48,137 bases of DNA from Hyphomonadaceae bacterium (GTDB lineage: Bacteria; Pseudomonadota; Alphaproteobacteria; Caulobacterales; Hyphomonadaceae): the NCBI GenBank assembly GCA_030697555.1, contig JAUYPV010000058.1, positions 1-48,137 of the forward strand, in the 5' to 3' direction. Within the stretch, counting starts at the first letter, position 1. Every line of letters starts with the position of its first letter. Shown piece after piece: positions 14,182 to 48,099 of the stretch. The position numbers were made by a program, and so were the translations under genes. The notes beneath the pieces were generated by a model that saw only the letters and a list, made by a program, of their open reading frames with translations, had not been told where the DNA came from and made no database searches.

Positions 14182-14275
14182 TGTCCCCTCGTTTCTGTGG
14201 CTGAGTCATACACGAAGACACGAAGCATGCATGGCGGGACGGGGTGGGGATCGCCGGCAATTGAACAAGGTTTCA

Positions 14276-14404
14276 CACCCCCCACCTGTCCGCCCCCCTT
14301 CGGGCGGGCGGGACCGCGTTTCGCGAATTGGACAACGAACGATCAGGGTAAGCAGGAGCAACAAGGTCCCGCCCGCCCGAAGGGGGGCGGACAGGTGGGG
14401 GGTG
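14276..14404. repeat. Long palindrome: perfect 40-bp arms, 49-base loop (copy 1)
   Basis: Left arm 14276-14315 and right arm 14365-14404 are perfect reverse complements over 40 bases. They enclose a 49-base loop (14316-14364) containing AATTGGACAACGAACGATC and AGGGTAAGCAGGAGCAACAA. Each arm holds an internal CCCGAAGGG-type mini-palindrome. The right arm ends six bases before the DUF559 stop codon. A related copy with the loop in inverted orientation lies on the other side of that gene. Confidence 0.95.
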
Positions 14405-14410
14405 ATTCAC

Positions 14411-14854
14411 CTAGTTCCGGACTTTGTTCTGCTCGCTGACCTGCTTGGCCATCAGCCGCATCTGCACTTCATCATAGATCGTATCGACCACGCCCCGCAG
14501 GTTCTGATCGATCTCCTGCACGCTGAAGCGGATGACGTCGTAGCCTCGACGGTTCATGCGATGGTCCTTCCGCGCGTCGCAAACGGGATCATGCGTTGGT
14601 CCATCGACCTCGACGATCAGCTTCAGTGGCACGCAACAATAATCTGGATATCTGTGGTCGATGACGTGCTGCTTGCGGAATGGCGCACCAAGCTGGGCTG
14701 CGCGCAGGTGCGGCCAGAGTTTATCCTCAGTTCGCGAGGCTTCGCGGCGAAGCTTGCGGGCGAACTGCGTTTCTTCGCGCGAGCGTCCCGGATACGGCTT
14801 ACGTGGCTTGCCAGCCTTGCGCGTGCGCGAGACGTAAGGATCGTCTTTCGACAT
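14411..14854 (-). CDS. DUF559 domain endonuclease-like protein (Vsr/PD-(D/E)XK-like fold)
   Basis: I start at the ATG ending at 14854, preceded by GGGGAAGCG; this gives 147 residues beginning MSKDDPYVSRTRKAGKPRK. From about residue 30 the DUF559 pattern is clear: FARKLRREASRTEDKLW, then FRKQHVIDHRYPDYCC, LKLIVEVDGPTHD, a basic helix and GYDVIRFSVQEIDQNLRGVV. The Asp of YPDYCC and the E-x-D of VEVDG fit the family's putative catalytic site. The basic N-terminus suggests DNA binding. DUF559 proteins are related to very-short-patch-repair endonucleases, but their role is mostly unproven. The gene is enclosed by two inverted copies of a long palindrome and separates dapD from its usual neighbours. 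Confidence 0.88.
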   Translation of the reverse strand: MSKDDPYVSRTRKAGKPRKPYPGRSREETQFARKLRREASRTEDKLWPHLRAAQLGAPFRKQHVIDHRYPDYCCVPLKLIVEVDGPTHDPVCDARKDHRMNRRGYDVIRFSVQEIDQNLRGVVDTIYDEVQMRLMAKQVSEQNKVRN

Positions 14855-14917
14855 CGCTTCCCCCAACACGCCAAAACCAGCATGTCTGGGAATCACGATC
14901 AACACCTGAACGAGGAT

Positions 14918-15057
14918 CCACCCCCCGCCTGTCGTTCGGCGCTTCGCGCCTCACCCCTTCGGGCGGGCGGGGCCATGTTGCTCCAGCTTACCCTGATTGT
15001 TCGATGTCCAACTCGCGAAACCAGGTCCCGCCCACGCGGGGCGGACAGGTGGGGGTT
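14918..15057. repeat. Long palindrome flanking DUF559 (copy 2, inverted)
   Basis: The right arm, about 15024-15057 (GGTCCCGCCCACGCGGGGCG followed by GACAGGTGGGGG), pairs imperfectly with the left arm 14918-14974, which carries a roughly 20-base extra hairpin with GGCGCTTCGCGCC. The loop 14975-15023 is 49 bases long and matches the reverse complement of the copy 1 loop at 42 of 49 positions by my count. Copy 2 is therefore the same element turned around, so the two copies form large inverted terminal repeats around the DUF559 gene. Confidence 0.9.
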
Positions 15058-15082
15058 CAACATTCCGAGGACCAAGTTCGAT

Positions 15083-48014: not shown

Positions 48015-48099
48015 GGAGCGCCGGGCGCCTGCCCGGCAAGGCGCATCAGCATTCACCATGCTCGCGGTTAGACCCTGCCGGGCAGGCGCCCGGCGCTCC
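48015..48099. repeat. Long palindrome: perfect 24-bp arms, 37-base loop
   Basis: Left arm 48015-48038 (beginning GGAGCGCCGGGCGCCTGCCC) and right arm 48076-48099 are exact reverse complements. The loop 48039-48075 includes GCATCAGCATTCACCATGCT. The arms differ in sequence from the DUF559-flanking palindrome, but the stem-long-loop-stem layout is alike. The window ends 38 bases later, so what lies on its other side is not visible. Confidence 0.9.

Follow-up and report, generated by a model that had tools for sequence, protein, structure and literature searches.

Intergenic regions of bacteria often contain short palindromic repeats; the BoxC repeats of Escherichia coli have been known since the 1990s, and the RAYT or TnpA-REP transposases, which are HUH enzymes, sit beside inverted REP or REPIN palindromes, most REPs carrying a GTAG or CGTC tag at the foot of the hairpin. 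For the triplex repeats of E. coli, a consensus (TMECO) and inverted pairs have been published (PMC4666352); the main text of that study reports no mobility functions near the triplex motif, calls its origin unclear, and mentions neither ycjD, fabI nor sapF. The DUF559 nucleases form a second background, since the passages of PMC12907096 on the Caulobacter DUF559 protein VsrA describe it as needed for a DNA damage response and as functionally tied to a cytosine methylase. Here we describe a unit in which a small DUF559 gene stands between two inverted palindromes, found in a 48,137-nucleotide stretch of DNA (the window, meaning the whole of positions 1–48,137 of contig JAUYPV010000058.1) from a Hyphomonadaceae bacterium (GCA_030697555.1). 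Among the papers listed in searches of the open-access literature, none was found to link DUF559 with repeats, subscription papers and preprints being outside the scope of these searches.

Palindrome 1 is composed of a left arm (14276–14315), in which the C-rich strand comes first and which forms an inner hairpin CCGCCC..GGGCGG, a 49-nt loop (14316–14364), and a right arm (14365–14404) that pairs with the left arm at 40/40 positions. Folded as single-stranded DNA, it reached −65.8 kcal/mol (z −12), a value equalled by 0/200 shuffles. Six bases away lies the stop of a single-domain DUF559 gene on the minus strand, which was placed at 14411–14854 with an assumed ATG start, a GTG at 14905 being a possible start of a longer product; the open frame (14411–14905) matched PF04480 with a Pfam E of 1.4e-26. 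Palindrome 2 (14920–15055, limits set by reading the sequence) aligned with palindrome 1 in inverted orientation at 78/90 positions (14949–15038), and one of its arms contains a small extra hairpin. An earlier note, made from this DNA alone, had described the perfect 40-bp arms around a 49-base loop, the six-base gap, and loops alike at 42/49 positions once one was reverse-complemented, and all three were reproduced. Its second palindrome was indeed related and inverted but proved to be degenerate, as 14931–15055 folded no better than shuffles (z +0.46). The unit fills the interval between a gene of 144 aa and dapD (14182–15082), and it lies between dapD and dapE, both supported by Pfam, as the note had said, although two other genes lie there too. 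A known RNA family was rejected, the nine Rfam matches (eight microRNA hairpins and one antisense RNA) all being under the gathering scores.

DapD was matched in 60/61 genomes, the window genome included, and among the 30 loci fetched a DUF559 gene within 1,500 nt of dapD was present at the window locus only. The distance from dapD to the homologue of the 144-aa gene was 26–102 nt in 11 of the 29 other loci, and no C-rich hairpin or 12-bp inverted repeat was observed at the dapD junction in any of these 11 relatives; in the remaining 18 loci the dapD–144-aa gene order was not found. Read against these relatives, the window unit is an insertion. The earlier note had considered that the same DUF559 gene might occur here without palindromes in most relatives; instead, gene and palindromes were both absent from the 11. 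Two contig ends provided a second case. Contig C154 begins inside a DUF559 gene, with its 3′ portion (99% identity to the window gene over 137 nt), and contig C3 begins with the 5′ portion of such a gene (94% over 122 nt); each continues into a palindrome, and with the palindromes counted in, identity is 98.9% over 272 nt for C154 and 82% over 283 nt for C3. The two ends probably represent one further copy of the unit. The gene beyond one end, which we take to be the phosphohexomutase gene manB, and the unnamed gene beyond the other were adjacent without DUF559 in 8/29 relatives’ loci, at distances of 193–371 nt in seven relatives and 762 nt in one; in the other 21 loci the partner gene was not located in the range covered. 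None of these eight manB-side junctions contained a C-rich hairpin, and a 12-bp inverted repeat was absent from 7/8. A different inverted repeat, with arms of about 21 bp, was seen after manB at locus L271 of genome G003. Taken together, these comparisons demonstrated that the gene and its palindromes occur jointly at sites where these relatives carry neither.

The window genome contains five full DUF559 genes. By eye, each seems to have palindromic repeats nearby, which differ in sequence, and an inverted flank match of at least 16 was obtained at three of the five. Solo palindromes, which the earlier note had proposed to look for, were present as four copies of the window palindrome family (contigs C62, C10, C92, and C168) with no DUF559 match in the 7–8 kb read around each, and pieces of two more were found at contig ends. 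The same palindrome family was recovered in 4/61 genomes, all of them DUF559-bearing, although other DUF559-bearing congeners lacked it. The suggestion that the arms of one element are kept identical was borne out by C154, in which one base was changed in each arm relative to copy 1 and pairing was still 40/40, but not by C62, with one mismatch, or by C10, C92, C168, and copy 2, with insertions in an arm. A short stretch resembling the DUF559 3′ end was noticed in the outer flank of the C3 palindrome (L027, 270–290), a hint that palindromes may be copied together with some neighboring DNA. Near the end of the window (48015–48099), there is another perfect hairpin, with 24-bp arms and a 37-nt loop.

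The association was not confined to this genome. A C-rich hairpin was located within 350 nt on at least one side of 94/128 DUF559 genes versus 32/335 control genes (taken from loci L107–L145 only), with 1/5 in the window genome, 29/42 in relatives, 22/24 in named genomes, 23/29 in the class sample, 19/27 in the phylum sample, and 0/1 in E. coli, whose BoxC repeats are missed by the perfect-arm detector because their arms hold a mismatch. The pyrimidine arm came first in 133/137 hairpins. Five duplicate loci were dropped ahead of the 71-locus count, the count of control-gene hairpins and arm order, and the 128-gene count, and the second E. coli locus ahead of the last of these; genes with less than 150 nt of flank were left out of the flank-match counts and of the 128-gene set (3/131, leaving 128). 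Relatives contribute several genes per genome, and the loci are not all independent. The two 350-nt flanks matched each other in inverted orientation with a score of at least 16 at 37/71 DUF559 loci, compared with 0/96 random positions in the same loci. A second set combined two E. coli loci with 30 loci of the class sample, each from a different genome; with one locus excluded because its flank was short, such a match was found at 5/31, compared with 1/335 control genes. Flanks were measured from the domain start in the 71-locus, 31-locus, and control-gene counts and from the chosen start codon in the 128-gene count, a change that lowered the number of inverted matches among the first 71 genes from 37 to 32. 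Across 222 cross-genome pairs lacking distal homology, DUF559 protein identity correlated with flank similarity (rho 0.51), and a flank score of at least 20 was reached by 11/37 pairs at 55% identity or more versus 11/185 below. Within the genus, shared hairpin families are frequent among similar proteins at loci lacking distal homology; for example, the gene on contig C153 of the window genome shares 76% and 72% identity with one G003 and one G008 locus, at flank scores of 54 and 39. Similar DUF559 proteins at unrelated loci therefore tend to share hairpin families, as a tendency and not as a rule. Long palindromes, which may be RIME-like, lie upstream of several rhizobial DUF559 genes. At L194 (genome G306), DUF559 adjoins three CCCTCTTTG..AAAGAGGG hairpins in a genome without any hit to the general pattern, suggesting that arm sequences vary more than the pattern allows.

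The number of palindromes also followed the gene across genomes. Among 61 relatives, the CCTCCCCC palindrome count correlated with the DUF559 count (rho 0.71), and at least one such palindrome was present in 28/39 relatives with DUF559 versus 4/22 without. Judged by gene content, the window’s class is presumably Alphaproteobacteria and its phylum Pseudomonadota. Among 240 genomes of that class, three or more palindromes of the general pattern were found in 50/58 with DUF559 versus 17/182 without, and among 213 other genomes of the phylum in 24/31 versus 18/182. The reversed-pattern control at the same threshold gave 4/58 and 4/182 in the class and 1/31 and 12/182 in the rest of the phylum, and base composition alone was rejected on these low values. 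In 22 discordant class families, the DUF559-positive side was higher in 20, lower in one, and tied in one; per Mb, it was higher in 19. Genome size alone was likewise rejected, as the DUF559-positive genome was not larger in eight class families and still had more palindromes in seven of them. The 22 discordant families were entered by hand, and the window’s own family f1 (two hits versus none) was left out; 19 weak PF04480 matches (E >1e-15) in the class, and weak ones elsewhere in the phylum, were scored as DUF559-negative. Three genomes (G116, G154, and G243) were noisy, with many reversed hits, and G244 had 302 pattern hits with two DUF559 matches. These counts demonstrate that, in the genomes compared, solo hairpins are far more numerous where DUF559 is present. 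The tie between palindrome and DUF559 beyond this locus, on which the earlier note had made its idea depend, thus held both in the hairpins beside the genes and in the genome counts.

In E. coli K-12, the TMECO consensus, as published in PMC4666352, had a single match in the 14 kb read around the DUF559 gene ycjD, 167 bp from the ycjD stop (L158 7206–7240, equal to NC_000913.3 1351205–1351239). A further C-rich hairpin appears, by eye, to run into the ycjD 3′ end. The ycjD repeat has the three-tract form, that is, two C-rich tracts a few nt apart followed by a G-rich one, or its reverse complement. Among 182 hairpins near DUF559 genes, an extra tract was present on exactly one side in 76, on both in 0, and on neither in 106; such a tract accompanied 169/910 placements drawn at random from those flanks. 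BoxC places were counted in 60 E. coli records, sampled evenly from 5,393, and numbered 12–27 (median 18) in the 37 records with ycjD and 1–18 (median 11) in the 23 without. A clean empty site was not available in E. coli because ycjD occupies the place of the eefRABCD operon, according to the portion of PMC12817139 on that locus.

Deinococcus plasmids carry DUF559 and hairpins within catabolic operons. In the hpa operon of two Deinococcus species, units encoding proteins 87.5% identical lie at different junctions: in D. proteolyticus, the unit occupies a 487-nt interval between hpaB and an oxidoreductase gene, and in strain NW-56 a 511-nt interval between the same oxidoreductase gene and hpaE, two genes that overlap in D. 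proteolyticus. On the hpaB side of NW-56, a VOC gene is separated from its neighbors by 13 and 1 nt, and since that gene is absent in D. proteolyticus, this junction is not strictly equivalent. Loci L251, L252, and L256, from three Deinococcus strains, have DUF559 at differing positions of the hpa operon. A C-rich hairpin was present on at least one side in nine of ten plasmid loci and on both sides in five, these ten having been hand-picked from 31 matched records with the gene limits of L258 guessed; control genes at the same setting (arm 7, 200 nt) gave 54/335 on either side and 4/335 on both. Single loci with DUF559-flanking hairpins were also found in Pseudanabaena and Hymenobacter. Several other loci were noted: on a Sphingomonas plasmid, sufB and sufC are separated by a DUF559 gene (L257, 2968–3378) and its accompanying hairpin; on Sinorhizobium meliloti pSymB (L254), DUF559 is flanked by near-BoxC hairpins with an inverted flank match of 102; and on Synechocystis plasmids (L249 and L250), DUF559 lies near DUF1156 or PglX-like methylase genes, possibly as a clade with another role. 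As to a phage origin, 1/50,697 phage records matched.

The only Pfam match of the window protein was DUF559, at 93 bits against a curated cut-off of 20.6, and the DUF559 model matches enzymes of the restriction-endonuclease fold, which is common to Vsr and to the EDxHD homing endonuclease I-Bth0305I. The NCBIfam Vsr model TIGR00632 was not matched by the window protein, whose sole NCBIfam match, PRK09767, scored 56 bits against a cut-off of 218; TIGR00632 was matched by one Deinococcus relative, also below the cut-off. We consider it probable that these data describe a two-part mobile system, in which a small DUF559 nuclease of the Vsr/EDxHD fold spreads the inverted C-rich hairpins that flank it. 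The linkage, the dependence of copy number on the gene, and the joint insertion were each demonstrated at the sequence level; from them we infer binding, cutting, and copying as follows. In single-stranded DNA, such as that at a replication fork, the protein would recognize the hairpin or a triplex formed by three tracts of one strand and would nick or cut it; through repair, a copy might then arise at a new intergenic site, either of a hairpin alone or of two hairpins enclosing the gene. Hairpins without a gene of their own would be acted on in trans, the mode proposed for RAYTs on REPINs. Copying by way of the folded strand would keep both arms alike, and the paired arm change in C154 fits such copying, although it is one case and the arms of other copies are unequal. 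The earlier note’s idea of a mobile palindrome–DUF559 unit with the enzyme in the RAYT role gained support from the linkage elsewhere and from the joint absence in relatives.

Other explanations were weighed against the same data. The palindromes might be spread by another route and DUF559 might home onto those already in place, so that the flanked gene would be a product of the palindromes and not their source. The 11/11 dapD junctions without a C-rich hairpin or 12-bp inverted repeat speak against such homing, as do the 8/8 manB-side junctions without a C-rich hairpin, where L271 alone has its different inverted repeat, and the corresponding Deinococcus junctions, at which the genes lie 13 nt or 1 nt apart or overlap; because the empty sites are palindrome-free, the palindromes seem to arrive with the gene, and we regard homing as unlikely. 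If, on the other hand, DUF559 had the role suggested for VsrA, in DNA defence or very-short-patch repair, the hairpins could be mere terminators or insulators. The functional link of VsrA to the Caulobacter cytosine methylase, described in the VsrA passages of PMC12907096, and the methylase-like genes that adjoin some DUF559 genes are in keeping with a repair or restriction role. Terminators, however, leave the inverted matching flanks unexplained (1/335 control genes), as well as the solo copies that track DUF559 and the unit-wise insertion; PADLOC gave no match, and a known defence system was rejected. This second explanation thus appears improbable to us. A third would make the palindromes elements resembling miniature inverted-repeat transposable elements (MITEs), moved by an unrelated transposase with DUF559 as a passenger. 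All four solo copies in the window genome do share an element of about 310 bp with 25-nt inverted ends, but no separate copy of those ends was listed when the draft genome was searched with the whole element. An inverted layout of this kind, with hairpins of other sequences, recurs in Proteobacteria, Deinococcus, and Pseudanabaena; hitch-hiking would hardly produce either this or the pairing of protein with hairpin family, and we rate it slightly lower still.

Several observations weigh against the two-part mobile system itself. No exact junction or target duplication was readable at the insertions examined, the roughly 310-bp elements that hold the solo copies leave room for another mobilizer, and the general palindrome pattern had only two hits in the window genome. 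The both-flank inverted match was found in only 46/128 genes overall and 5/31 at class level, just 11/37 high-identity pairs reached a flank score of 20, and the Synechocystis L250 DUF559 gene, beside a methylase gene, had no hairpin. Three or more palindromes occurred without DUF559 in 17/182 genomes of the class and 18/182 of the rest of the phylum, and fewer than three despite DUF559 in 8/58 and 7/31, respectively. Three of the 22 class families were lower per Mb, and the comparison of non-class families was not significant (six higher, two lower, one tie; p 0.29). The BoxC contrast in E. coli follows the phylogroups, as presented in the eef-related part of PMC12817139, and hence perhaps reflects one or two events and is weak independent evidence.

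Returning to the two-part system, we lean, with less assurance than for the system itself, towards a broader proposal: DUF559 nucleases of the YcjD/VsrA type may drive an unrecognized class of mobile elements, whose hairpins, often triplex motifs, would spread solo, as doublets, or as hairpin–nuclease–hairpin units, with BoxC as a solo form. In the two-part system itself, the E. coli BoxC/TMECO repeats would already be the solo copies belonging to YcjD. A nuclease gene that predicts the repeats and inserts with them would be a direct candidate for the origin of the BoxC/triplex repeats, left open in PMC4666352. If this is correct, palindrome mobility would gain a non-HUH enzyme class, a domain of unknown function would acquire a suggested function, vsr-like “repair” genes would be open to a reading as selfish elements, and the action of a nuclease with a restriction fold on folded single strands would represent a new way of mobilizing DNA.

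Among known systems, the EDxHD enzyme I-Bth0305I and Vsr share the nuclease fold, whereas DUF559 is a small freestanding gene between hairpins, with no intron or intein noted. BoxC, also described as PIT or TMECO, is similar in that its consensus lies beside E. coli ycjD and the three-tract motif lies by DUF559 in Sinorhizobium meliloti and other genomes, whereas the window palindrome fits that motif loosely. The RAYT–REP system is alike in having an enzyme gene by inverted palindromes, many solo palindromes and inverted doublets per genome, and an enzyme clade linked to a palindrome family, which for DUF559 is a tendency. The DUF559 hairpins nearly always present the pyrimidine arm first, and neither GTAG nor CGTC occurs within 10 nt of either end of palindrome 1, the one palindrome inspected for them. 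The enzyme, in contrast, has a restriction-endonuclease fold and not the HUH/Y1 character that defines a RAYT; the unit fits no element class tested, and it seems to resemble RAYT–REPIN in its way of working.
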